DNA of 64,000 nt, from assembly GCA_028583405.1 (NCBI GenBank), contig CM053256.1:19145534-19209533 (forward strand), in the 5' to 3' direction. The first letter of the stretch is position 1, and each line of letters begins with the position of its first letter. Under the pieces are notes generated by a model. That model was not told where the DNA came from. It saw nothing but the letters and a program-made list of their open reading frames with translations, and did no database searches. The DNA comes from Pogonophryne albipinna (Eukaryota; Chordata; Actinopteri; Perciformes; Artedidraconidae). Shown one piece after another: positions 12,095 through 63,848 of the stretch. A program made the translations under genes and the position numbers.

Positions 12095-12324
12095 AAGTGA
12101 TATTACTGAATCACTTCTGGTTTCTTCTTTACACTGTTGTCATCCACTGTTCTATCATCATGCATGGTGCTCAGGAGGACAACAGCTTTCCCCTTTTTTG
12201 GGACATAGCTCACCATGGTCATGTTGTCAATGAATCTAAATTCTGAGCTATGCTTTTCCGTCAATTCGTATAGCTTCATGACAGGCGGTATGTCCGGCTT
12301 CTTCTGGCGAAGGGTCCCCACAAT
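12095..12324 (-). pseudogene. piggyBac transposase remnant, central/C-terminal part
   Basis: The - strand frame 12103-12321 reads GTLRQKKPDIPP, then FIDNMTMVSYVPKKGKAVVL, LLSTMHDD and KKKPEVIQ. This is the familiar order of the central piggyBac transposase core, ending at the 'KKPEII' region. The next codon is a stop, and the Tc1 fragment replaces the cysteine-rich tail. The upstream part of the same frame (DNFFTGIPLAEKLLEKNLTI) is 9.35 kb away at 21675-21757. The two were separated by the hAT inserted at CCCACAAT. The role was cut-and-paste transposition at TTAA; this copy is broken by insertion, a stop and truncation. Confidence 0.9.
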
Positions 12325-12671
12325 CAGGGGCGCCGTAAGGGGGTGAAAAGTTAGGACGATTCTAAGGGCCCGTGACTGACAGGGGCCCCAAAATGTTCAG
12401 AATATTAAGAAAAAAAATGTAAGTAACCTTTCATCAATCCTCAATAATTAACATTAATAGAATGTTATATTGATAAATTACTCACTAAACTTACGATTCA
12501 TTTAACTTATTTTCTTCCAAAAGTTAATTACCCAAAGCCTCTGTACACCCCCTTCTATTTACATGTAATGGTTTGGTCCTGCCTCCAAACGCGGTGCGAC
12601 ACCGGCACTTGCAGAGAGTGAAAGCATGTGAGGAGGGATGCTAGTACTTAGCCTACATAGTGTGTTGTACC

Positions 12672-13032
12672 CATAGACTGTATATATAAATGGACGTAGG
12701 GTCCGTGACGTCACCCATAGGATTCTGCAGAGTTGCCGTGAAGCCCTTAGTAGGCGGAGTCGGCTACTAACGGCTCGACAGTGACGTCAGAGTCTAACTC
12801 CCGCCTTCTCCCGCCTGCTCCAAATAAGGGCAAAGAGGCGGTGCTGAGGCGGAGCCGAGGCGGGACAGGGCGGGACCTGCTGCCAACGAGCGTGACGTTC
12901 CAGACCTAGCTCAGGCTAAGAAGCTAAGCTAACATGCTCTCAGTATTAAGCTAACAACCTATGCTAACAACACAGTCTATGCTAACAACCCAGCTTGCAG
13001 TCACTGCTCCTCGTTCCCGGCATATTCTGAAG
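12672..13032 (+). promoter_or_regulatory. Putative promoter and 5' leader of the SGNH gene
   Basis: A TATA-like TATATATAAA lies at 12681-12690. It is followed by two consensus cAMP-response palindromes TGACGTCA (12706-12713 and 12782-12789) and a CpG-rich stretch with GGCGGAG/GGCGGGAC motifs (about 12750-12880). A canonical donor AAG|GTAAGA at 13032/13033 would end a non-coding first exon. The acceptor CTTTCAG|C at 13273/13274 starts the exon with the ATG. This is inferred from motifs only. Confidence 0.5.
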
Positions 13033-13290
13033 GTAAGATACCCTGTAACTTTACAAAACTTGTCCTTTTGATTTAAATGTTCTTGAACCTACACTATACA
13101 ATTGTTTTTTAAGTGCTTCACCGTTTTTCAAATATAAATGTCATTTGTAACTAAACTTTGTAAACTAGCAGAGATATGGCCAGTGTTGCGTGAATTAAAT
13201 TTAATTAATGAAATATGACTGTAGAAAAAGAAAGGTGCTTTTATATTGATTAAACCATTTTTATTTCTTTCAGCATTAAGAAAAAAGAAG

Positions 13291-13394
13291 ATGGCAACCT
13301 CCTCCACGCCAAACTGCACAACCTGTAAGTTGATGGTCCTAGCTTACTTTACATGACTTCAGATGGTTGACATTACACACAAACATACTATACA

Positions 13395-13451
<57 letters not shown>

Positions 13452-13482
13452 GTGTGCACAATTGTAGATAAACAGCACACAG

Positions 13483-13514
<32 letters not shown>

Positions 13515-14211
13515 AACTGTGTGCTGTTAATCTGTTTTTTGAGGTTTTGCTCTATTGTTACTTTTAACCATACAGGTGTGATTTCATAGTTATTTTGTAT
13601 GTTATTGTCAAAGGAACAAAATGAGCAACCCTTTATACTTAATTTGATATTCCTCATTATCTGAAGCATTTGTTACTCTCATTTATTTTCCTCCCATAGT
13701 GACTGTATGGATAATCGGAGACAGTTATGTCCGGCGTGGAGCCCAGAGAGCTACAGAGACCATCGGCAGCAACCTTGGCCTCGACCTGAGGGTGTGCTGG
13801 TTCGGTTGGGGTGGACTGCGCTGGAGAGGTGTCCTCCCTTTCTTTTCCTACTCCCTGCGAGGAAGAGCAGCCCCGGATGTCCTCCTCATCCACTGTGGCG
13901 GCAATGACTTGGGGGATGTGCCCAGTGTTCAGTTGCTGAACCAGATGAAGGAGGACCTGCACCAGCTTCACCATCGGCACCCTGGCATGAAGATCATGCT
14001 CTCCCAGATCAACCAGAGGCGCCGGTGGAGGGCTGGTGCAAATCCTGTCAAAATTGACAAGGCCCGGAAGTTTGTTAACAGTGTTATGGCTACTTTTGTT
14101 CATAGCCTAAATGATGTCATTGTTGACCACTCCAACATTAGACATGACAGTCCTGGGCTTTTTTTGCGAGATAGAGTTCATTTCACCCCTAGGGGAAATG
14201 ATATTTTTTAA
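13291..14211 (+). CDS. SGNH/GDSL-type hydrolase-like protein, two coding exons
   Basis: The coding parts are 13291-13324 (starting [11 protein letters not shown]) and 13700-14211, joined across a GTAAGT...CCATAG intron with the frame kept. The product is 181 residues. It has the full SGNH catalytic set: the GDS box (IIGDSYV, nucleophile Ser20), the glycine block WFGWGG (47-50), GGND (Asn80) and DRVH (Asp169, His172). SGNH enzymes hydrolyse esters or related bonds; the substrate here is unknown. Such domains have been reported in vertebrate mobile elements such as Ngaro. A short T-run just before the stop (about 14204-14209) appears one base short, so the usual tail after GNDIF is out of frame. 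A possible poly(A) signal AATAAA is at 14340-14345. It is convergent with the THAP gene in the same element. Whether it is transcribed is unknown. Confidence 0.8.
13388..13514. repeat. Two (AT)n tracts in the SGNH intron
   Basis: TA dinucleotide runs lie at about 13390-13446 and 13482-13514, with TG/CA-rich sequence between them. They lie in the intron upstream of the hydrolase exon and open spurious Ile/Tyr-rich frames. Confidence 0.9.
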
Positions 14212-14796
14212 AGTCACTAGCCAATTGCCTGAAAGACCACCTCCAAAGACTGTGACAGGCATGAAAATCACTCGCTTTTCGGCGAAATTCGCCATTTTGA
14301 ATCCAAAATAGGTCGTTTGTGTGATTCATGTAGATCTGCAATAAAAATATTTTTGGGATATGGGGGGGTCTGGGACCCGGAGTAATCTGCGGCCGCGAGC
14401 TGTTATGTGCCATCATGACACGCATGGTGTTCTTTTTTTATATATTATAATGCAGCGCAAACTGTGTGCTCGAGTCTTCCTGCCTGTCGGCTCTGCTGCT
14501 CCGCGATGATGGTCTAGCTTCAGCAGCCACATTACCTACGGGTGCGTTCGTTAATATTAACTGTGCGGTCCGGAGTCACTGTGGCACAGACTGGACCGCT
14601 GGTGAACAGCTGTTAGAACGGACCGTTCAGGTGTTCAGAGCAGAGCTCCCTGTCGGAGCGGCAGAGCGCGATGTGCACTTAAAAGTTTTTCTGTCGCAAT
14701 ATTATCGTTGAGCTAGCTAACTAGCATACATTGTCACTATCAGCTAACGTTAGCTTTAGCCTTCGTTTTCTAATAGTTTTTTTTCATAGGCTATAA
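14212..14796. other. 3' flank of the SGNH gene
   Basis: After the SGNH stop, the continuation of the usual C-terminal codons is readable in another frame to about 14255. Then comes AT-rich sequence with AATAAA at 14340, followed by a CG-containing stretch (14380-14700). No further gene is recognised. Confidence 0.5.
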
Positions 14797-15871
14797 ACGG
14801 AGGTGGTATAAGTATAGATCTTGTACTTGAGTAAAAGTAGAAGCACTCAGATCTTGTACTAGAGTAAAAGTAGAAGTACTCAGATCTTGTACTTGATTAA
14901 AACAGAAATACTCAGATCTTGTACTTGATTAAATGTAGAAGTACTCAGATCTTGTACTTGATTAAAAGCAGAAATACTCAGATCTTGTACTTGAGTAAAA
15001 GTAGAAGTACTCAGGTCTTGTACTTGAGTAAAAGTAGAAGTACTCAGATCTTGTACTTGATTAAAAGCAGAAATACTCAGATCTTGAACTTGAGTAAAAG
15101 TAGAAGTACTCAGATCTTGTTCTTGAGTGAAAGTAGAAGTACTCAGATCTTGTACTTGATTAAAAGCAGAAATACTCAGATCTTGTACTTGAGTAAAAGT
15201 AGAAGTACTCAGATCTTGTTCTTGAGTCAAAGTAGAAGTACTCTGATCTTGTACTCTAGTCAAAGTAGAAGTACTCAGATCTTGTACTTGAGTAAAAGTA
15301 GAAGTACTCAGATCTTGTACTTGAGTAAAAGTAGAAGTACTCAGGTCTTGTACTTGAGTAAAAGTAGAAGTACCAGAGTGTAGGAATACTCTGTTACAGT
15401 AAAAGTCCTGCATTCAAAATGTTCCTCAAGTGAAAGTATAAAAGTATTCTCATCAAAATATAGTGAAAGTAGCGACAGTAAAAGTAGTCGTTGTGCAGAT
15501 TGGTCCATTTCAGAATAATATATATGATATGTTTTATAATGATTGATCATGAAAGTGTTCTCAAAGCTGGTAAAGGTGCAGCTAGTTTGAATGACTTTGT
15601 ATTCTGCAGGGTAGCTTGTGAATTTACTCCAGGTGGAACTAAAGTCTGATTTAACACTTGATTATATTTCACATCATTCATCCACATCTGTGAAGTAACT
15701 AAAGGTATTAATACATGTAGTGGAGTACAAGTACACCATTTACCTCTGAACTGTAGAGGAGAAGAAGAACAAAGTAGCAAAACATTGAAATACTTAAATA
15801 AAGTACAAGTATCTCAAAATTGTACCCAAGTATAGTACTTGAGTTTAGGAACTTAGTTACTTAACACCAGT
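14797..15871. mobile_element. MITE-like element with internal minisatellite
   Basis: The flanks GGCTATAA (14789-14796) and GGCTATAC (15872-15879) form an 8-bp duplication with one mismatch. The ends are ACGGAGGTGG and the complement of ACTGGTGTTAAG. The interior is the AGTAAAAGT/'gtacttgag' sequence typical of a very common teleost non-autonomous transposon, which also occurs as a fragment at 4933-5056. It has no coding capacity. The 8-bp duplication fits a hAT relative. Confidence 0.7.
14816..15373. repeat. 33-bp minisatellite, 17 copies
   Basis: Tandem units of 33 bp carry the core AGATCTTGTACTTGAGTAAA. Because 33 is divisible by three, frames on both strands stay open (154 and 177 codons) as 11-residue repeats. 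These are not believed to be genes. A variant unit (GATTAAAAGCAGAAATACTC) recurs at units 5, 8 and 11, which suggests a 99-bp higher-order repeat in the middle of the array. Confidence 0.95.
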
Positions 15872-15879
15872 GGCTATAC

Positions 15880-17490
15880 AGATAGAAAGACTAAGCCTTG
15901 CACAGAGGCATGACAATAGATTTTCAAAATGCTCAACAGTGCTGCCAGAATTATAAACTGACTGCTACACAATTAAAATAAATGCTTTTATATATTTCTA
16001 TTAGATGTGACTCTTTGGCGTTTCTGTTATTATTAACACTGCTGCTTTAGTTGTTTTGACTGCTAACATCCTGTTATTCCTAATTTTACAGCCGATATTC
16101 CGTGGGGTCGGGGGCTCGGATCCTTGTCACCTTTTCCATACCTGATGAGTTTGCATCCCTGATAATACTTAGTAAGGAGGCCATAATATTTTTGACTCAT
16201 GGCTGAAGTTAAGTTTCTCCAGCTCTCCCCAGGTTGGCAAAAAAATGCATCTCAAAATGCATCAGATTGATGCTTTAAAATATGGAATATTCAAAATGTT
16301 CTTCCCGGGGAGCATGCCCCCGGACCCCCCTAGAGGGATAATATCCTTCTCACCTTTTTCACCCCTGACCCGTTTTCATGCCTGCTGTGAACTGCTAAAA
16401 TGTCAGTATCACTGTTTTTGGATTTGGCCTTTAGAGTATGTATTCTAAGGCCCTTGCTAAGCCCAGACTGTCATGGCTAATGTTGAGTTAGATATTACAT
16501 CTGTAGCCATAACACTGTTAACATGGCTGCTCTTCCTCTTCCCCACATCCCACCCCCCCCCCCCCCCCCCCCCCCCCTCTTCCCCCAATGGACTCTGTAG
16601 CTCTCCAGGCCCATGCTGGGCATGGCTGTCTGTCAAACATTTTATTTTGTATTTGTTATGATGTTTTTTGTGATTTTATTTGTTAAAATAATTCTGTATT
16701 TATGTAAATATTGAAAATAAATTACATTCATATTTTCACTTCTTTTGTCTACAGCTTACTGAAAATGTTAGCTATCACATCCAAATGGGACTATCAAATG
16801 AAAGGATAAGCTTACCATACAATACAGAAAACATTACACATTAAGGCTCAAATCTTTTCCCAAGCCGTAGCAGTCTGAAAAGAGTCCCAAGTTTAAAAAC
16901 ACAAAATCTTGACAATGAATACTACGCTGTCATTTATCAGTGACAATGCAAACAACAAGAAGGTCTCCCCTAATCCCATGTATTTTGGCATCAAATATGT
17001 CATAAGCATACCATAGAATGTAATTATGAAGTGCAATACCCACAATCCCTACAGGGTTGTAACGTCACAGAAGATAATACCTTTTAGAGAGTTTTGTTCA
17101 GTATGCAGATAAATATTTGTTTTACAATAGAAACATTTTTCTCCATAAATGTTCCCACATGTTGTGAGCATCAACTTTAAATCTTTTGTCAACAAATAAA
17201 AAACATCTTAATTTCCTTTACGACAACATTTTGTTTATAACACCACTACATTAACAATAAGCATAGGAAAATGATAAATGTCAACATTTAAGATTGTGCT
17301 TTTACTCTTTATTTAATCAGATCTATTTCACATTGAAAATGTGATAAATACACAAGCCACATTGAAAGTTACATCTTGCATTTTATGAAAAGTAAAGGTT
17401 TCGAATCATTTTATGACTTAAGTACACTAGAAAATAAATTAAAGATGTGCAACAACTGTATCAGTAATTAAAATGATATAACTTATGTAC
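15880..17490. other. Non-coding interior of the SGNH/THAP element
   Basis: No gene is recognised. Near 16290-16345 is a G/C-rich palindromic motif (CCCGGGGAGCATGCCCCCGG) of a dispersed repeat, also present at 51690-51740 and 63650-63710. A run of 25 C lies at 16553-16577. The rest is AT-rich. Confidence 0.55.
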
Positions 17491-17957
17491 AGGGTTGGGA
17501 GGGCTACTTGTCAAAAACACAGCCAGTAACTTAATGTGAGTATCAAGATATAAAAGTAATGTAACCTGATAACTTTCTTTTTCTTTTGGATTACCTAAAT
17601 ATCAAATGCAATGCAAATAAACACAGGAGAGAAGAAATATTAATATGATTTTTTTACTTAAATGTATAATATAATACCATAAAGCAGATTCAGGCAGTAG
17701 GTGTATAGATTCACAATTAAAGTATTAGCCTACAGAACAGTACGGCTTCCAGAGAAGAGATACAATTTGATCATTTTACAACAAACAGCTCTTTTTAGGT
17801 TTTGAATAAGATTGTAATCCTGAGTTTCCCTATTATTAAAAAAAGTCAAACTAATCCGATTACATCTTTTCCTATGTAACTAAGGATTACACTTTCCTTT
17901 TTTTCTATACGATCTTGATTCGTGTTAGATGTAATCCATTACTACCTATGCCAATAA
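17491..17957. mobile_element. Decayed DNA-element fragment (AGGGTTGGGAGGG type)
   Basis: The segment starts AGGGTTGGGAGGGCTACTT. It contains 'aatccgattacatc' and 'gtaatccattactacc' towards its other end, a pattern I associate with a common teleost inverted-end element. The ends are only roughly inverted and no duplication is clear. Confidence 0.4.
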
Positions 17958-18127
17958 AAGTCATAACTTTTGGAAAATTGTCTCAAGTTATAAATTATGC
18001 CTTCAATCTCTTTCACGTGGAGAAGACATCACATTGGCCGAGGCGTTGCAACTTCCCTCAAGCGTCCTACATGAAAGAAAGATCACATGTTAAAAATGTG
18101 TGCACAAACTATTCATGATGACCCGTC

Positions 18128-20318
18128 TTAGTTTAAAGCCCAAGTGTAAGAGTGAGCAGAGGCGGAGTCTGCCTGTTTTCCAATTTGTTTTGTTTGTTGG
18201 CTGCTGCTACCCAAACCAACATCCTCACAAGCATTGACTGTTGGAATGTCATTATGCTCCACATGTGGAACAACAAAGGCTTCTTCAGGTGTGTCTTGTA
18301 TCATAATGATATTGCTCTGATCAGCAGCAAGACTGTTTTCACCACTACCATGGTCTAAATCTGCAACCTCCTCATTGCTATTAGCAGTCGAACTAGGACT
18401 GTCACTTACCTCGTCATTGTTACTCACCCTGCTTTTCCTTCTAGGCTGTTGTTCTTTGCCATTGGTGAAATAGAAAATGGTGGGCACTGCAATGTTTTTC
18501 AGGCATCTCCTTCCCTAATAAAAATAATAAACAAAAACACATAAAATAACTTTTTGAGGTCTGTAGATATTTAACTTTCTTTTGAATAATGTTGTTTTAA
18601 ATTTAAGAGTGCATTATAAAAAACAATAGAGGGCCAACATGTTAACTATGCAGTTAATCCATTCAACAATTACGTGTTTCCAAGATTCAGATTCAAAGGA
18701 TTTATGTCATATGCACATAGGCTACAGTGTAGGAATGGCAATGAAAATCATCTGTCCCGAGCTCCTCCAACAATGCAACATAGTTATATAAGACATAAAA
18801 CAATAAAAGAAATTCAAAATTAAATTAAGAATAATAAATTAGTGCAGGCAGAAATCTATATACACGTAAATATAATAAGACATATGCAAGAACAGAATGT
18901 AAAGATAAATATTGTATAGTAAAATGAAATTAAATCCTTTTTTTTTTACAGTGATAGCTGTTAAGATAAATAAGTTATAAGATGACAACAGATGAATGAA
19001 TGTTGCTATTTAAAATAATGTAAAAAAAGGTAATATAATTCATCTGTTTTTAACATAGAGTATGTGGGGGGAAATGGCAATTCTCTATCTATGATAAAGA
19101 GTCTTTGCATAAATTGAAGAGAAATGTGATGGTTTGCAAAAAAAAATCGATTTCTATGTTTCTATACTTAACTGGCAAAATCTTAATTTGGCCTTTAATC
19201 AAAAGAACATTACTCATCACTGATGTGCAAGCTGTGCCAAAACAATTATTTAGCATTGTATGATGTATAACATGTATTTAATTAGTAACAACAATTTACA
19301 CTCACAAATGGAACCAAGTTATTTAAAAAAAAAAGGGATCTGTACCCATGAGTCCGTGCTGAAGTGATGACTCTCAAAGTGTTCACTGCACAGGCGAGAA
19401 GACACGTTGGGGGTCCATTTATTCCTCCGGATGTTCAGCACCCACTGGTCCAGCCTGTCAGGAAACCTTTATTCAAAAATACATGAAAACCGACCCAAAG
19501 ACAACAGGAGGGTTAATGCCATATTCACTTAATAACGCATGAACAACTTTTACAAATATTTCTATATAGTCTGTGTTGGTAAATGTAATCTAGGTTGCAC
19601 ATTTCCTGCTGAAATACATGCATGGGCCTACCAAGTTACTGCGTGGCACTTTGGTTTTGATAAAACAGTGTAGTTCCACTATATAAACGTTACATTCATA
19701 ATCAAACGAGACAATATGCAAGATAAATAGCTATTTGTTGTTATTCTTAATGCTTGTCATTCACACGTTAAGAAAATAAAATAAGTACCGATACATAGCA
19801 GAACAATTGTGGCGATGTTCAGCTTAATAAGCCTTGTTCAACATAATTTCTTTAGCTAATACTATAGAAGGCTGCAGGCGAACCAATTCCGCGTTTCGCT
19901 GCATTCCTTGATCTCCAGTTATAACGCCGGGCTCCGCCGCTGGCCGAAGCTAACGGAGCCGCAAAGGGCTAGCTACGGCTTCGGTTAGCTTCGGCGGCGG
20001 ACTCCGGCGGCCACCACTGGGATAATTGGGTCTCCTTTTAAAATTTGCTCCCATTTAGCATTATGGGCGTCATAGCCATAGACTATAATAGTCTTACCCA
20101 AGGCTGAATCATAAACTAAACTGTATATATATATACACATGTATAAAGGGTTACGTCCTTAGCTGGCTAATAAGCTACATAACAAGCTAAGCTAACAAGC
20201 ACACAAACACCTGCTAATGGGGTTAACATGTATAATATTATCATTTTACTCACCGAAAAAAGCTGAGAGTAGACTTCTTGGAAGTTCTGTTAGTACATTC
20301 AAGCGCACAGCAAGACAT
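18128..20318 (-). CDS. THAP-domain zinc-finger protein, three coding exons
   Basis: The exons are 20318-20254 (MSCCALEC...SFF), 19466-19346 and 18514-18128. They join at canonical sites (CG|GTGAGT; AAAG|G; TGG|GTACAG; TTAG|GG) with the frame preserved, giving 190 residues. Residues 1-76 form a complete, compact THAP domain. It has C4 and C8, then FFRFP (20-24), W30, W39, LCSEHF with C48 and H51, and the terminal AVPTIF (71-76). A basic PRRKSR stretch follows (86-91), then an acidic Ser/Asp/Glu-rich tail without a recognised domain. THAP domains bind specific DNA; in P-type transposases they recognise the element's ends. A protein of this size could be a regulator or a separated DNA-binding subunit. 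No transposase catalytic part is seen. All key residues are intact, so decay is recent or the gene is selected. Confidence 0.85.
19934..20000. repeat. GC-rich imperfect inverted repeat in THAP intron 1
   Basis: The left arm CCGCCGCTGGCCGAAGCTAA pairs with a right arm ending TTAGCTTCGGCGGCGG, and both arms carry a CGGAGCCG/CGGCTTCG extension. It could form a stable hairpin. It is a CpG-rich island in otherwise AT-rich sequence. Confidence 0.75.
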
Positions 20319-20814
20319 TTTAATTGTCTGGTATTTGTAACAATATTCCCACAATCACCACGAACACGGCTAAAGCTAAAGGGTCAAGTACAGTACTATG
20401 ACTAACTAACGTTGTAGCCTCTATGGTTGTAGCCTAGCAGAGTGGACAAGTTGCTGTTAGCTGACAGTGAGGCATGTACGTGTCCATCAAAGTGTCCACA
20501 CCCTAATTTATGCAAAAACTTTAAGACCTAATATAAATAAAAGGGTCGTGTTAGAAAACAATTCACTCACAGATCCATAATCATGAAGGTGGAATCTAAC
20601 TATATCGATAATAAAAATGTATGGAGCCAGGGGTAGAAACATGTTTTTTTCTGCTGTAAAATTGGGCATTTTAACATGGGAGTCTATGGAAATTGCTCCT
20701 TTCTGCAGCCATCGCCTATCGGCCAATATATGAACTGCAGTGTGTGGCACTTCCGTATTGGCGTCCCGGCTCTTCCCCAGAGTTTGCCGCTTGGTTGTAC
20801 CCATAGGTTGTACC

Positions 20815-21290
20815 ATGTTTCAACGACCAACAAAGTCAGGCTCTAAGAAAAGAAGAGAAAGGAGAGAAAGACAAGAGAGAGGGACGCAAGGGCGAAAGTA
20901 TGTCACCCAGTTTTTCACTGTGCACAAGCTTATCTCGTGCCCTCATTGGTCATGTGCGCGTTCGTGTGTGTTGGAGGAGGGGCTCTGTAAGGAACTCTGA
21001 AGGAAGGGGCAGATTTTTTTCGGTTGTGTACTTTCAAATTCTAGCGCACTCGAGCTGGTTTCTACATTCTTACCTACCTACCTTTAATAAATGCAGGCAC
21101 ATTTTTAGCACCTATTCATACTAAATAAGTTGTCCCTCCCCCTGGTGCCAGGTCCAACAGATCCATCTTTAGGCTCAGCAGCCCTGTCCCCCCATAAGGC
21201 TGAACCTGAACCAGCTTTTCTCCCAACTGAAGGAGGTGAGCAGCATTGTGTTGAATGACATGCCACTTAACATATCTGAAGGGAGACTGG
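20815..21290 (+). pseudogene. hAT transposase N-terminal remnant
   Basis: The frame starts at ATG 20815 with MFQRPTKSGSKKRRERRERQ. The lysine/arginine-rich start is typical of hAT transposases of the TTF/zf-MYM type. Frame breaks follow, but recognisable low-complexity linker sequence (VPGPTDPSLGSAALSPHKAE) reappears at about 21130-21230 on the same strand. The remainder of the transposase, including the RNase-H-like core and dimerisation domain, is absent. The start codon lies immediately after the 8-bp duplication of the 8.1-kb insertion, which separates it from its leader (12325-12671). Confidence 0.6.
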
Positions 21291-23029: not shown

Positions 23030-24535
23030 AGTGACGCAACACTTTTGGAGAGAGAGGACGCTGGCGTTGTCTGTTCGCCGCTTCTCTGTCCGAAAATGTA
23101 TCTGCCGAGTTTTGGACCAACGTTTCTACCTCAGTTTCCATACGTTCAGTGGCTTGCACACGCTGTTCTGGACACTTTTGTAACACCCGATCGCAACTTT
23201 TTACGGATGCTCCGCTTCTGACCTGTCCACCCTGCTACACCTGCTAATGTTGCTCCTGCTTCAGGCTAACACTATCGCTAACGTTAGTGGCTCCATCTGA
23301 CGACAAGCCCGATTCTCCGTCTCATTTTCCCGTTTTGAGTCCCGATCCTGCTTCACTGTATCACCTGCTTAGCTGCTGTTTGATTTTGTTCTGCCACAAA
23401 AGACACAACAACGGTCCTCTCCACCCAGCCAGTCTGACGGCGATCAGAAGCTAGCCTAGTTCTACCTGCTCAGGCTAGCCTGCTCTGGCCACCACCGGTG
23501 CTCCTCTGCAGCAAACTTCTTCAACTTCCACCATCTCTCCTCAGTGCTGTCCGTCCTTGAGTCGCTTCCTGGACAGGCTGCCTGCTGTCCTGGTTCATCT
23601 GTACTCTTGGCTGATAGCGCATTCTCCCGGCCGATCCGCGACCACAGCTAACGCTGTGCTAACGTTAGCATCATACCATCGTGATGCTTCGTTACTCCGC
23701 CTCGCAACTTTTTAGGATCAACCACATCACTACACCCCCTCTATGTCTGTCAGTCATTGAATACCTTGGGCTGTTACGAGTTGGCAGACCCAGGTATGTC
23801 CATAGAGGTTCCAAACGTGGGTTTGTTTACACCGGCTCAGCTCACACTATCCCAACTGTGTGGTCCCGGCGCCCCGTCACCGCCCACTTACGTCATCACA
23901 ACAAACCACACGTGTGCAGTGTTAACCTGAAGCCCTTGGCCTGTGTTGATGGCATCACTGTTTTACCAGCCATTGCAACAGATAACAACTCCCACACATT
24001 CATGTTGTTAAATACCCGCTCCCTTAACAACAAAGCATCACTTATTAATGAAATCATCATTGATAGGAAATTAGATTTTCTCTGCCTCACTGAGACATGG
24101 CAAAACCAACAGGACTTCCTCACACTCAACCTAGCCACCCCCCCCCCATGTTATGCTTATCTCCAACAGCCCCGCTCCATTGGTCGTGGTGGTGGGCTGG
24201 CAGTCATCCACAGAGCAGATATCCCTGTCAAACAGCTGCTTGTGACGAATAAAATCTCACTTGAGTGCATTGCCTTCTCAGTGGCTGCCCCCTCAAAGCA
24301 GCAGGTCGTCCTCATTTACCGCCCCCCCAAACCTTCCACCTCATTCATGTCTGAGTTGTCTGAGCTTCTCACCTCAATCTGCTCCATGTCCCCATCCACA
24401 CTACTGCTAGGTGATTTTAACATCCACGTGGACTCCAGCACCTGCACCTTTGCCGCTGAGTTTCTGTCACTATTGGAGTGCTTTAACATCACGCAGCATG
24501 TCCAAGGTCCCACCCACACTAAGGGCCACACCTTG
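23030..24535 (+). mobile_element. LINE 5' part with AP-endonuclease domain, truncated
   Basis: An open frame from 23681 has the apurinic-endonuclease-like domain of a non-LTR retrotransposon in order. It contains LLNTRSLNNKASL (Asn111), DFLCLTETW (Glu138), GRGGGLAVIHR, IYRPPKP, LLGDFNIHVD (Asp245, Asn247) and PTHTKGHTL (His279, His283). Homology stops at 24535 just before the expected catalytic Asp of the GHTLD motif, so the copy is 3' truncated and lacks reverse transcriptase. The sequence from about 23030 to 23680 is CpG-rich leader. Its orientation and style fit Rex1/L2-group elements. In life the domain nicks target DNA to prime reverse transcription. Confidence 0.8.
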
Positions 24536-24772
24536 CGTGTCTTCACTTGCAGAGAGAAGCAATCAGCTTCATGTGTGTCCAGATAGTGTCCAGAGCTGGC
24601 TGCCATTACAAGTAGTGGTTTGGGATTGTAGCAATGCAGTTGCAGTTGTTTTGCAATTTACTTGATATATGTTGCAATGCAGGCATGTGTTCAATTGTTT
24701 ATAGCCTGCATTTATTTTGTGATTAGACTTTTATAAATCATTTAACTAGTGAAACACTTGATGTGTTATCTT

Positions 24773-24925
<153 letters not shown>

Positions 24926-25162
24926 TCTGAAATGCACTTCAAATGATCACTTGATTTCCCTTTGATATTTTGTTTAGGTACAGTGTTACTTGCAGCTAAT
25001 TGATTGATTGTTTTATGGGTATTCTGTGTTGAGATGGTGCAAATATTTTTAATACATATCTAATATCTTTCTAATACATTTCTCTTGTGTTGTTCTTTCA
25101 CATAACTAAGACTATAGAAGTGTAAAAAATAGGCTACGTCAGATTTTTCCAAGGGACATACA

Positions 25163-25209
25163 TGTCAAATCAAGTCAATTTTTATTTATATAGCCCAAAA
25201 TCACAAATC
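25163..25209 (-). mobile_element. LINE 3' tail fragment
   Basis: The stretch 'aatttttatttatatagccc', followed by 'aaaatcacaaat', is the complement of the Rex1-type tail seen at 22795-22829 ('atttgtgatattgggctata'). Only the last about 45 bp are present, as in extremely 5'-truncated insertions. Confidence 0.65.
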
Positions 25210-25382
25210 AGAATGAGGGGGTCCTTGGTGTATTCTCTATCTTGTAAGGGGTCCTTGGCTGAAAAACAATTGAGAACCTCTGCCTTAGTGAATACATGCT
25301 CGGTCCAAATCACTGTAAAATAATTATTTATTACTAAATAATTATTATAGTATGTATTTTTTTCATTTTTATCACACTTACC

Positions 25383-25760
25383 CATGTATGCAAGTGCTGT
25401 ATAAATACAAAAACTATTTTAGTTCATAAATTAAGAAAGGTAGAATGAAAATAATGATGTGTGGTGATCAAAAACAAGATATTTAATGAATACTTGGAAT
25501 ATTAAATTATTAAATAAATTCATTTCCAAAAATATAGCTAAGAAACACTCAGCCATGCATCAAATAACATTGTAGGTCAATACGGGTCATTTTTTGTACC
25601 CATGTTGTCCCTTAGAAGGGTAGTGATACAAAAATGATTTTTATTCAAAAAGTAAGAAAGGAAAAATGAAAGTAAGAATTTGTGATGATCATAAACAAGT
25701 TAATTGAGGAATACCTGGAATTCTGAATTATTAAAGTAATTAGTTGCAAAGATATTTACA
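25383..25760. repeat. Diverged tandem pair near the right end of piggyBac
   Basis: The segment 25383-25520 ('caaaaactattttagttcat', 'aagaaaggtagaatgaaa', 'gtgatcaaaaacaag') is repeated in diverged form at 25598-25760 ('caaaaatgatttttattcaa', 'aagaaaggaaaaatgaaa', 'tgatcataaacaag'). The period is about 210 bp. Subterminal repeats often serve as transposase sites, but that is an inference here. Confidence 0.7.
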
Positions 25761-25812
25761 ATTAAAACTCACTCGGGTCACTTTTGACCCATGTTGTGTA
25801 TCAAAGGGTTAC

Positions 25813-26995
25813 AAAATAATAATCTAGATGCTTCAGTAATGAAAAATTACAGGCCCATATCAAACCTCCCATTTCTAGGTAAAATCATTGAAAAAGTAGT
25901 TTTTCAACAGTTTATATAATTTTTTTGATGGGTTCCAGTCAGGCTTTCGTCCAAACCACAGCACTGAGACTGCTCTTGTAAAGGTCTTCAATGACATCCA
26001 CTTAAACACAGACAATGGAAGAACTTCAGTGTTAGTATTATTAGATCTCAGTGCTGCGTTTGACACTGTTGACCACAGCATATTACTAGACCGACTGGAA
26101 AACTGGGTGGGACTTTCGGAAACAGTTCTAAATTGGTTTGAATCCTACTTAAAGGACAGAAACAACTTTGTTTCTATGGGTAAATACACATCTGAGTTGA
26201 CAAATATGGCATGTGGGGTTCCTCAAGGCTCCATCTTGGGGCCTCTTCTCTTTATCATCTACATGCTACCACTGGCTCAGATAATGAAGAACAACAAAAT
26301 AAGTTACCATAGCTATGCGGATGACACACAAATTTACGTAACCATTTCACCAGGAGACTATGCTCCAATTCAAACACTGAGTAAGTGCATTGAACAAATC
26401 AATGACTGGATGAGTCAGAACTTTCTCCAATTAAACAAAGATAAAACTGAGGTAATGGTTTTTGGAGCCAAGGCAGAACGTATAAAAGTTAGCGCTGAGC
26501 TTCAGTCTGCAATATTCAAAACAACAGAGAGAGCCAGAAATCTAGGTGTAGTCATGGACTCTGAACTGAGTTTCAACCGTCACATTAAAACAGTCAGGGA
26601 CGGGTCAGCTTTCTGTCCCCAGAGTCAGAACCAAACATGGAGAAGCAGCGTTCAGTTATTATGCTCCAAATATCTGGAACAAACTCCCAGAAACCTGCAG
26701 GTCCGCTGCAACTCTTATTACTTTTAAATCCAGGCTGAAGACTTTTCTTTTTGCCGCTGCTTTTAATTGATATATTCATATCTTAAACTGCACTGTAACT
26801 TTTATTATCTTTGCTTTTTATCTTTGCTTTTAAATGAGTGTTTTTAAATGTCATTTTATATCATTGCTGTTAAATGAGTGTTTCTAGATATCATTTTATA
26901 ATATGTTTCTTAATGCTCTTAATGTCTTTCATTTTTGTAAAGCACTTTGAATTGCCTTGTGTTGAAAGGTGCTATATAAATAAACTTGCCTTGAT
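25813..26995 (+). mobile_element. L2-like LINE, downstream half with reverse transcriptase
   Basis: This continues the LINE interrupted at 10756. It reads NNLDASV, NYRPISNLPFLGKIIEKVV, a short frame-broken patch, then FQSGFRPNHSTETALVKVFN and an open frame 26029-26727. That frame has LLDLSAAFDTVDH (motif A), GVPQGSILGPLLF (motif B) and YADD (motif C, residues 96-99). After HIKTV (about 26595) roughly a hundred codons are deleted. The carboxyl end resumes in another frame as AFSYYAPNIWNKLPE and LKTFLFAAAFN before a stop at about 26769. The tail ends 'gctatataaataaacttgcc' near 26995. It is inactive, though the catalytic motifs that remain are intact. Confidence 0.9.
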
Positions 26996-31127
<4,132 letters not shown>

Positions 31128-46436: not shown

Positions 46437-47862
46437 TTTTGTGTTTGCGTTTATAATGCATCTGGCTGAGGTTATAGTTGCAGATGCTCCGTGGCTTATT
46501 CCATTTGTGTGAGTACATTTTGTTCTGATCCTTTTTGATGCTTCTGGTGAGTTTGTACTTTAGGTGGAGTGTGTGTCCTGAGTCTTTGCAGTACGTGTGT
46601 GAGTGTTTTACAAAGTGCTACTGCTTTTAAATTAAGTCTGTGTCTCACTGGTAGGGAATAGGAATAAAAACAGAAGACTTTCACTTTCTCATTAAAATAA
46701 AGAAAGGGTCTGTTCATTAATACCAGCTCTGCTTCCATATGCATCATCTCCCCCTGGGTGGTATTTAAAGATCCTGAGAGCCTGGTTTCTAACCTTGTGA
46801 ACCTACTCTACTGCACATAAATGTAAATAAATGTAGTGAATAAAATGACCATTTCATTGAGGGGGAAAATAATGCAGGAGATGAAGGGGAAGCGTGCCTG
46901 AAATTAAGTGATGCTAGTCTTCAGTGGGTGCATGTCAGCACTGAGGTGAGGGTTGAACACTATGACATATGTATAAGGGTTAGTTTTATCTCATTAGTGT
47001 GTGCTCAGAATAAAACAATACACTAAACCTGTGTCTTTGATTGAGACATTACTGCTGATGGTCTTGGTGATTAGCTTGTCGCCCACTCATCCACTCATCA
47101 GTAGGTTAATGCAATTGTTAAGCAAAGCAGTCTTTTTTTTTTTTTTTTTAAATGGTATATTAATTAAGTTAGTGATCCAAATCAGACCAGTGGGAAATTA
47201 GATAACGATATGAATAAAGTAGTAAAAACATGCATGTCTTTTTCCGAGCACTTGGCAATTGTTCTTGATCACGTGATGCAGGTATTGTTCTGACGCACCA
47301 GTCTGATCCTTCCTCGTATTTTAAGGGCTGATTCAGACAAAAAGTAGTCCTGTGTTGAAACAAAAAAGGGCTGCGTATATAGAGGCTGTTGCCTTCTTTT
47401 AGAACTGCGTACCAGCAGAACTACAATTTCATTAGAGAGCCAGAGAAGGCCTTCTATTTTGTGAACACAGCATTACTGAGTAGTATGCCTATGGAATATC
47501 CATGTGTAAAAATGTGAGTATAGTTACAGATGTCACTGAATGTTTATATAACTCTAACCTTTGCCGTTTACTGTGGTCCTCAGTGGGTGCATGTCCATTA
47601 AAGTGTGAGTCTGAGGTTTGTGTGTGTGTGTCAAACAGGTTCCCTGCTGTGATTATAGCTGCAATTGGTTGCATCCAAGAATGAGAGAAATATACCTGCT
47701 GTTTTCCTGCTGAGTTTGTGGCTGCAAGTATGTACGTGTGTGTGTGTGTGTGTGTGTCTCAGTCTTTCCCTTATAATCACGCTGGTAGGGTGATGTTGTC
47801 TGCTGCTTGTTCATTGTGTCTGTGGAGTGTGGCGTGTCCGTGTGTGCGCGCTCGGGTGTTAC

Positions 47863-47983
47863 CTGGTGCTTCTGCTGCTGCTGCTTGCTCACGTTGCGGC
47901 TGTAGGTGTTATACTTGACAATGTCCTGGCTCATGTCGTCCACCCTGTCCATCAGAAGCTGAAGGCTCTTCTCCAAATGGTTG
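47863..47983 (-). CDS. eif3h: eIF3 subunit h, third-last coding exon
   Basis: 121 bp: one base completing a codon, then 40 codons [40 protein letters not shown], ending in phase 0. The acceptor TTCTTTCCAG and the donor CAG|GTAACA are canonical. This is the helical segment after the MPN domain, which packs in the helical bundle of the eIF3 core. Only the start of the gene is missing from the window; upstream exons (MPN domain, amino end) were searched for on the - strand to 64000 and not found. Confidence 0.95.
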
Positions 47984-48044
47984 CTGGAAAGAAAACGACA
48001 GCGTGTCATTCACATGGTTTTGTGCAGCCATTAGTACTTGTGTG

Positions 48045-50947: not shown

Positions 50948-52324
50948 GGTTTCACCAGTGGCGAGCCGTCAGGGCCCTCTAGGCCCTCTGTGAGGGCCTA
51001 ATATATTAAAAAAATAAATATTTGAAAACATTAAAAAAAAAAACGTTTTTTTTTAAATATTATTTTTTATATTTTGTTGTCGTTACATTTTTCATTAGTT
51101 TTACCGAAATAACTTGATTTAATTGTATTTAAAATAACATTTCCAAATAAATAAATCCTTCGAATCTGCCTGTTCAGTTTCTGTTGGAATGTGAAGGGTT
51201 AAATGCCGTCTCTGCGAGTTATGTGAAGACGGGAGAGCTTGTTGGTCCCTCTCTACATTCACAGAGGGCCAGCTATAGTAACTCAACGAGAGAGTAATGT
51301 CAAATGACAGTACAATTGACCAATCACATCTTCCCCAGTGTTTCCCTTAGGATTGAGTCATAGCAGCGGTGCTAAGGTACGTGGACCCAGCATAATGTGA
51401 GCGCGGAGAGCGTGGAATTTTTTAGTGCGTGCGAAGTGCGCCCCGCCAATTTGTTTCTATGAGTCTGCCAGCACAAGAAAGGCTCTTGAGGAACTAGTAC
51501 CAGGGCCGGTTCTAGACAATTTTCTGCCCTAGGCGAGATTTTATATATAAAGAATAAATGAAAAATCTCTACAAAAGACAAAAACAGAAACCTATTGACA
51601 TAGGTAATATACGTCAAAATGGCTTCAAATGTATTCAGTATTGTACGAACATGTTTTAATTGGGGAGTGGACGCATGGGGTGGACGTCACATCCTCCAGG
51701 GGGGTCTGGGGGTATGCCCCCCCGGGAAGATTTTTTTTGAACATTTAAAGTAAAATGCTTCAATCTGGTGCACTTTGAGCACACAATTTCTATACCTGAT
51801 CTAGGGGGGTACAACATAAACACCCATATGAAAAAGATCGGTTTACATTGTAATAATCAAATAAGTATGTGAACATAACCAATAACCTACCATAGCCAAT
51901 AACAAATAAATGTAACTTATTTTATTTTTGTTGTTCATTAATATCTTATTTTACCTTAACATTTACTTATTCATGCATATTTTGTATCTCTCCAACTTTA
52001 AACGATATTTTTGGTTTACTGTCCTAGTATACATCGGAATGATTTCAAACCTGTTTTTATTTATCCTAATAATTATAAAGGAGTGCCTTGGAAATATGTG
52101 TTTACATAATTTGTAAACACATATTTGTTTGAGACCCACTGAGATAACTTAGACTAAAATTAACTATCTAAACACTCAGAGTCCCTAACCTCACCTGAGC
52201 TGTTTATCTCTCTCAGTCTGACAGCAGAGGACTCTCCCTCCACCTTGTTGTTGAAACAGCTCCTTATGTCTTTTAGAGCAGCTAGCTAACCAGATGCTAA
52301 CAACAAAAATACAAGTAACCAGTG

Positions 52325-61426: not shown

Positions 61427-61527
61427 ATGCCTGTGTGCTTAGTACCAGGTTGTTATCATACCAGCAATGGGTCTTGCTCGTTCTTTCGCTTCCCGTCTGA
61501 TGAAAGGACCAGGAGTGGCTGGATCAA
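61427..61527 (+). pseudogene. THAP-domain first exon (orphan)
   Basis: From ATG 61427: MPVCLVPGCYHTSNGSCSFF then RFPSDERTRSGWI, which has the first half of a THAP zinc finger (C4-x4-C9, FFRFP, W32). It could end at a GTTAGC donor at 61528, in phase 2. The second half (CxxH and AVPTIF) was not found downstream, and the following sequence is AT-rich with an unrecognised 110-codon frame (61724-62056). It is a remnant of the transposon's own DNA-binding protein and is different from the THAP gene at 18128-20318. Confidence 0.75.
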
Positions 61528-63097: not shown

Positions 63098-63848
63098 CAG
63101 GGGCGCCGTTTACCGACAGGCAAGTGCTTGGACCAGAAGGGGGCCTCCAAATAAAGTAGATTAATCCAATCCAACTTTATTTATATAGCACTTTAAAACC
63201 TCCAGACCAAAGTGTTGGACACAGTGATGCAAACACAGGTATGGTGAAAAAAGAGAGAACTATTCGAAGCAGAAAAAAAACAGCGTAATACACCATCTGA
63301 CAAAGGCCTGTGCTATAATGCTTCAATTAACTGGCTATTCTTTATAATATACTCAGATCAAGAGGAGACAGAGATGTTAAGTTATAAATCAAGGGTTTTT
63401 ATTGTTATTTACAGTAGGGGTGGGGAACATTTTTCCTTTCAATTTTTACAACATCCTCAGCAGGCCGTACAAATTATTGAACTCAACCTCTGCTTAAAAA
63501 AACTAAAATCACAGCCCATTCATTTGGCCTTTCTTTCATGCTGTGCAAAGAACAAGGTGGCATGACCACCAAAACAGAACGATATGGACACAAGATGTCT
63601 GCAAATGTATTTAGTATCCTATCCATGTGAACATGATTTAAGTGGGGGGGACCTAACCTCCTCTAGGGGGGTCCGGGGGCATGCTCCCCCGGGAAGATTC
63701 TTTTTTTAAATATTGAAGTTAAAAGCATCAATCTGGTGCATTTTGAGAGCAACATGAGGAGATCTATGGATACATCTCTCAACACCCATTTGAAACAGAA
63801 CTGTAAGCAGACTTTTCTTTTTGGAAATTTTACAAATCACTCCCCTTT
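63098..63848 (+). mobile_element. hAT-type mosaic, left end only
   Basis: CAGGGGCGCCGTTTACCGAC at 63099 shares its first 11 bases with the 9.35-kb hAT at 12325. A LINE tail on the - strand ('aactttatttatatagcact') is at 63167-63196. A GGGGTGGGGAAC terminus-like motif is at 63418. The CTAGGGGGGTCCGGGGGCAT block and its 100-bp neighbourhood at 63590-63790 match 51620-51830. No right end lies inside the window. Confidence 0.5.

Follow-up and report, generated by a model that had tools for sequence, protein, structure and literature searches.

The window analysed here, a 64,000-nucleotide stretch of Pogonophryne albipinna DNA, contains two genes that face each other, one specifying an SGNH hydrolase and the other a THAP-domain protein, flanked by copies of a short direct repeat (Table 1). 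Both genes find their best matches in Antarctic notothenioids, and the window is fish DNA. The introns start with GT and end with AG, and in this respect the original prediction of two convergent, spliced genes with canonical sites was correct.

Table 1. Coordinates of the features found at the locus (positions are those of the window)
Feature	Position	Strand	Evidence or remark
Left target-site duplication, GTTGTACC	12664–12671	+	Sequence repeat count
Left terminus, CCATAGACTGTATA	12671–12684	+	14-mer recurs at 30915–30902, minus strand
Element, preferred extent, CATAGACTG...GCCGCTTG	12672–20793	+	GTTGTACC immediately flanking both ends
SGNH 5′ untranslated exon	12700–13032	+	Read from the sequence; start and use presumed; donor GTAAGA at 13033
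SGNH exon 2, ATG at 13291	13274–13324	+	Exon and junction to exon 3 shared with Gymnodraco P0001
SGNH exon 3, catalytic domain	13700–14211	+	Pfam Lipase_GDSL_2, 2.2e-11; 97 homologues; AF2 model
Out-of-frame SGNH C-terminus remnant, 15 residues then TGA	14212–14255	+	tblastn of P0001 and P0003
Nested DNA transposon, ends CAGGCATGAAAA / TTTTCATGCCTG	14256–16384		6-bp duplication CTGTGA (14250–14255, 16385–16390)
Truncated inverted SGNH exon 3 copy, downstream of the SGNH gene	16459–16631	-	Three colinear antiparallel matches
THAP exon 4	18006–18066	-	Icefish P0100, P0101 and P0104 likewise end in KSRDA
THAP exon 3 (AVPTIF)	18428–18514	-	With intron 3 kept, open frame to the stop at 18128–18130
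THAP exon 2, lacking four domain residues	19346–19466	-	tblastn and exon reading
THAP exon 1, ATG at 20318	20254–20318	-	22/22 residues identical to P0098
Right target-site duplication, GTTGTACC, preferred model	20794–20801	+	Sequence repeat count
CATAG plus third GTTGTACC	20802–20814	+	Probably the footprint of a second same-site insertion, left by excision or deletion; the mechanism is presumed

The SGNH product is a putative esterase which, in this copy, is 15 residues shorter at the C-terminus than its relatives. The Ser-Gly-Asn-His blocks and the fold of SGNH/GDSL hydrolases are present in the sequence and in the structural model, and the catalytic set is intact as claimed (S20, G50, N80, D169 and H172), these residues being conserved in most of the homologues that cover the set. 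The claim that the frames had been kept failed for this gene: a premature TAA interrupts the frame at 14209–14211, where close relatives run 15 residues longer, and the missing residues can be read in another frame down to 14252. The closest relative is from Gymnodraco acuticeps (P0001, 96% identity); others were found in Labrus (P0012) and zebrafish (P0017), and none in viral contigs or prokaryote genomes. In the SGNH tree, 8 of 8 Astyanax clusters grouped together with an SH-like support of 0.999, and 8 of 8 Synaphobranchus clusters did so with a support of just 0.168. Such within-species bursts argue for the gene being part of a mobile, single element.

The closest solved relative of the SGNH profile is the ORF1 esterase of the zebrafish LINE ZfL2-1 (PDB 4c1b; E = 7e-8). 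Foldseek matched the SGNH model to 4c1b with E = 5.7e-7 and a poor superposition (TM 0.46, rmsd 19.6); other hydrolases superposed better. Unlike LINE ORF1 esterases, the SGNH gene has introns and no accompanying reverse transcriptase in the part of the element frames that was scanned; the reverse transcriptase of the window, at 25.9 kb, lies outside the element. A LINE remnant with endonuclease and reverse transcriptase domains occupies 23669–26727 (plus strand). Ngaro elements also carry an SGNH gene within a vertebrate mobile element, together with split direct repeats, a reverse transcriptase and a tyrosine recombinase (PMC9210276), none of which was noticed here; the element has no long terminal direct repeats, and a tyrosine recombinase was sought in the scanned pieces only.

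The THAP gene carries the C2CH residues and the AVPTIF motif (Pfam THAP, 7.4e-17), as predicted, but what had been called intact is missing four domain residues (FGDP, LGDP or LDDP in P0098–P0101), and a fourth exon, from 18066 downwards, had been overlooked. The closest THAP protein is Pseudochaenichthys P0098 (83% over 49% of an early, partly mis-spliced query). Splicing to exon 4 gives a protein ending in KSRDA; P0098 takes this exon in the other frame, and grouper P0106 has a similar end stretch. If intron 3 is retained instead, the product has 190 residues, and its tail shares 50% identity with that of Labrus P0123 over 82 aligned columns, a match suggesting that both THAP forms may be genuine in distantly related fish. 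The tail of Champsocephalus P0099 is different and is not encoded in the window. A search limited to proteins of similar length found 173 THAP relatives, and features were counted among the 120 listed; the icefish relatives formed clusters of 17 and 7 sequences, whose members may span several genomes. The P-transposase HTH (PF12017) was recorded in a precomputed column for 7 of these 120, and rescans of P0133 and P0141 both matched it; the DHxY-SP-K pattern, written by ourselves, was present in 17. By these similarities the THAP domain thus belongs near P-type proteins. It could just as well derive from a captured host THAP gene, since other listed THAP proteins have the pattern without the HTH. 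Elsewhere in the window, a second THAP domain start (MPVCLVPGCYHTSNGSCSFFRFPSDERTRSGWI; 61427–61525, plus strand) matched Pfam at 3.7e-5, and a segment of what is probably the host's eIF3h gene lies at 47653–48009 (minus strand; Pfam eIF3h_C, 6.2e-17).

Between the two genes lies a nested DNA transposon containing a 33-bp minisatellite (about 14806–15369). Since this is a separate insertion, the 8.1 kb originally proposed is not the element's own length; the preferred extent of 8122 bp counts it in. A ~90-bp repeat has one copy in the nested transposon (16250–16336) and two others at 51693–51779 and 63660–63748. The inverted SGNH piece further downstream is internally deleted, and its chain score of 158 exceeded the highest value from 200 shuffles, 110.8. 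With the nested transposon excluded, AATAAA first occurs at 16716 on the plus strand past the SGNH gene, and at 17308 on the minus strand past the THAP gene. If these sites are used, the inverted piece would fall within the SGNH 3′ UTR, and the genes would be just ~0.6 kb apart, a gap offering no evident space for a transposase since lost. Within a transcript the inverted copy could fold back, making it a possible source of hairpin RNA.

For loss of a transposase by deletion, one of the options raised initially, no trace was found between the genes. None of the 36 stop-free pieces of at least 28 residues in 16385–18127 matched a transposase domain in Pfam, the same pieces giving only weak unrelated matches (zf-RING_5, 0.05; FixQ, 0.13; Cortexin, 0.28), and 19 tblastn queries, THAP or P-type proteins most of which have no RNase H, hit only the THAP exons and tail within the element; eroded or RNase H pieces could escape both searches. 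The pieces 14451–14708 and 20511–20819 matched no Pfam family, and no RNA families or tRNAs were found. Beside the insertion, at 12103–12396 (minus strand), there is a weak DDE_Tnp_1_7 match, just below the family cut-off, which we take to be piggyBac-like.

The element had been delimited by an 8-bp repeat bracketing 8,135 bp. The two copies of GTTGTACC on which this was based are there (12664–12671 and 20807–20814), but a third lies at 20794–20801, and the direct repeat in full is 13 bp, GTTGTACCCATAG, perfect and confined to positions 12664 and 20794. Across the left junction the sequence is GTTGTACC / CATAGACTGTATATATAAATGG, and across the right one it is GTTTGCCGCTTG / GTTGTACC / CATAG / GTTGTACC / ATG. 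Pairing the outer copies leaves the middle GTTGTACC unexplained, and a right end at 20806 is unlikely because the element would need eight target-like bases within its own end; from these strings, the boundary first given on the right is probably wrong. Pairing the first two copies yields 12672–20793 with an 8-bp duplication and places CATAG and one GTTGTACC outside. The CATAG at the left probably belongs to the element, as its first five bases, since the left-terminal 14-mer recurs at 30915–30902, where the match extends no further inward. Two same-site insertions and partial excision of one would reproduce the right-junction string exactly. Alternatively, a single insertion by another enzyme might have duplicated the 13 bp of GTTGTACCCATAG at a site already holding GTTGTACC directly after it. 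The perfection of the repeat and its presence at two positions only agree with such an event, which we nevertheless regard as improbable: the extra GTTGTACC stays unexplained, and the CCATAGACTGTATA copy makes CATAG probably the element's own. An empty site would read GTTGTACCCATAGGTTGTACC if 13 bp were duplicated, and would hold GTTGTACC once if the footprint model is right. The exact CCATAGACTGTATA at 30902–30915 (minus strand), with AAGG after it, may be where a related repeat ends; 3.8 kb beyond this copy lies an 8-bp repeat, GTGTGATC, possibly a chance occurrence.

How much the repeat can prove was gauged by its expected frequency. The GTTGTACC 8-mer occurs five times in the window, where 1.79 occurrences are expected (at least five in 4 of 100 shuffles), and after low-complexity filtering 19 perfect 13-mer pairs lie 5–12 kb apart, the GTTGTACCCATAG pair included. 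Pairs of this kind being not rare at such spacing, the repeat by itself is weak proof, and its weight derives mainly from its place outside both gene starts and from the third GTTGTACC copy. In counts made post hoc, after looking (as was that of the 14-mer), CCATAGACT had four matches in the window, three of them within the element, of which one is at its left end and two are in the rightmost 720 bp (0.46 expected in the window; four matches reached in 0 of 100 shuffles), and 15 9-mer placements were common to both ends, a value that 3 of the 278 region pairs drawn at random also reached; the common 9-mers are mostly TA-rich or GCTAAGCTAAC words. Position, third copy and CCATAGACT distribution strengthen the bracket. 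The left terminus also overlaps a TATA-like box, TATATAAA, at 12683, which could serve as the SGNH promoter. Six terminal strings sought as text in papers were not found, and a 17-mer that only approximates the left end, differing from its exact string, had six viral-contig matches, about the number that we estimate for chance. Both termini may resemble abundant percomorph repeats, a likeness given no weight as evidence here.

The prediction that obvious inverted ends are lacking held. End-to-end comparison of the element ends, with both right-end options, revealed no terminal inverted repeat; inverted matches in the terminal 10 bases numbered 2 (end 20793), 3 (end 20806) or 4 (best one-base shift), and the best local alignment between the ends is non-terminal. 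The locus might instead consist of two adjoining repeats, an SGNH element on the left and a P-like THAP remnant on the right, the flanking repeat being a coincidence or a shared hot spot; we consider this possible, with more doubt than conviction. The 18 other 13-mer pairs of that spacing, one of them inside the element, are in keeping with coincidence, and SGNH relatives occur in many fish in which the search yielded no THAP protein of this type. Because SGNH relatives turned up in far more fish than did the THAP type, for which proteins of similar length were searched, the two genes may not form a constant pair. A scan for separate boundaries, covering 7- and 8-bp duplications with inverted ends, produced a THAP-only candidate at 17358–20922 with a 7-bp repeat and 9/10 inverted bases; however, this is near chance (9 of 400 random region pairs) and would cut through the open frame 20734–21000, and no single-gene boundary combined an 8-bp duplication with more than 6/10 inverted bases.

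Helitrons have no target duplication, TC...CTRR ends and a 3′ hairpin. Here a duplication is present, the ends are not TC...CTRR, and four 60-base end folds at the preferred ends contained no stable hairpin. Rolling-circle capture of the SGNH gene, as for texim in platyfish, would agree with the lack of inverted repeats and with the association of fish Helitrons with SGNH genes (PMC4021074), the texim-Helitron being, like the element, a fish DNA element with a linked SGNH gene. However, teximYa and teximYb have 15 exons and an adjoining Helitron coding region, with no THAP mentioned in the available part of that source, and texim is reported there to be absent from zebrafish (PMC4021074), whereas the SGNH type found here has a zebrafish member (P0017). 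Such a capture is very improbable.

Two features shared with the P superfamily (Drosophila P, Anopheles P, zebrafish Pdre2), the 8-bp duplication and the THAP gene, suggest a link to it; some of the THAP relatives also carry the P-transposase HTH. The GTTGTACC flanks have the length of a P-element duplication, in a single insertion and with a third copy. P elements have inverted repeats, of 13 bp in zebrafish (PMC7776569) and 27–31 bp in Anopheles (PMC1562414), and a THAP-HTH-RNase H transposase (PMC1562414, PMC7776569). Here there are no inverted repeats, and THAP alone is present, plus an SGNH gene; the element is therefore not filed as a P element, although it may move like one. Izanagi, a non-autonomous P element of medaka, is alike in its 8-bp duplication, its fish host and a THAP gene of three putative exons without transposase, but it differs in its 1.3 kb, its 27-bp inverted repeats (CAATGAGTT...) and the absence of any other open frame from the available account (PMC2820524). 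Drosophila P makes truncated THAP-bearing repressors, one through retention of intron 3 (PMC7776569), and in the THAP gene described here intron 3 retention likewise alters the C-terminus. By this analogy, the gene could act like a P-element repressor.

We give about even odds (a probability of roughly 0.5) to the locus being one element, a damaged, non-autonomous, gene-carrying DNA transposon of ~6 kb without the nested one, the odds being set by the single copy known and by partial coverage of the literature. The presence of both gene types in Labrus (SGNH P0012, THAP P0123) counts in its favour; the single copy, the lack of inverted repeats and of a transposase, and the absence of the P0099 tail count against it. 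Movement as DNA is probable, since two genes in opposite orientation, each with introns, could not both have passed through a spliced RNA. A two-gene element would have inserted with an 8-bp duplication of GTTGTACC, its LINE-ORF1-type SGNH esterase and its THAP protein, akin to the N-terminus of P-type transposases, each being driven from its own end. A P-type (THAP) transposase provided from elsewhere may act on the ends by cut-and-paste, and the short THAP protein may compete for or mark these ends, like the truncated THAP products of Drosophila P. The esterase might be cargo, the simplest reading, or an accessory. A second insertion at the same site, incompletely excised, would have left CATAG and the third GTTGTACC, after which the copy would have decayed. 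That this copy represents a teleost family without inverted repeats, with its own SGNH and THAP genes paired one per end and 8-bp duplications made by a P-type or unrecognised enzyme in trans, seems unlikely. The original observation was thus partly confirmed, with five corrections (the third repeat, the SGNH frame, the THAP residues and exon, the nesting and the role of chance); of its interpretation, a mobile DNA element that has a THAP gene and an 8-bp duplication but lacks inverted ends still fits, while its right boundary probably does not hold, both genes are damaged, and the search between them turned up no transposase remnant.

No paper combining a THAP domain, SGNH and transposase was found in the partly covered open-licence literature, and the SGNH and THAP pairing, resting on a single copy, looks new. 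Esterase domains recur in retroelements, including LINEs, Ngaro and the LTR elements of bdelloids (PMC5408684, PMC9210276). If an esterase does reside in a DNA-moved, THAP-bearing element, this would suggest that the module crosses transposon classes, and the element would offer a system for studying esterase and transposition apart from each other. A further gain would be a vertebrate stand-alone THAP protein with intron-3 isoforms, in parallel to the P-element repressor.
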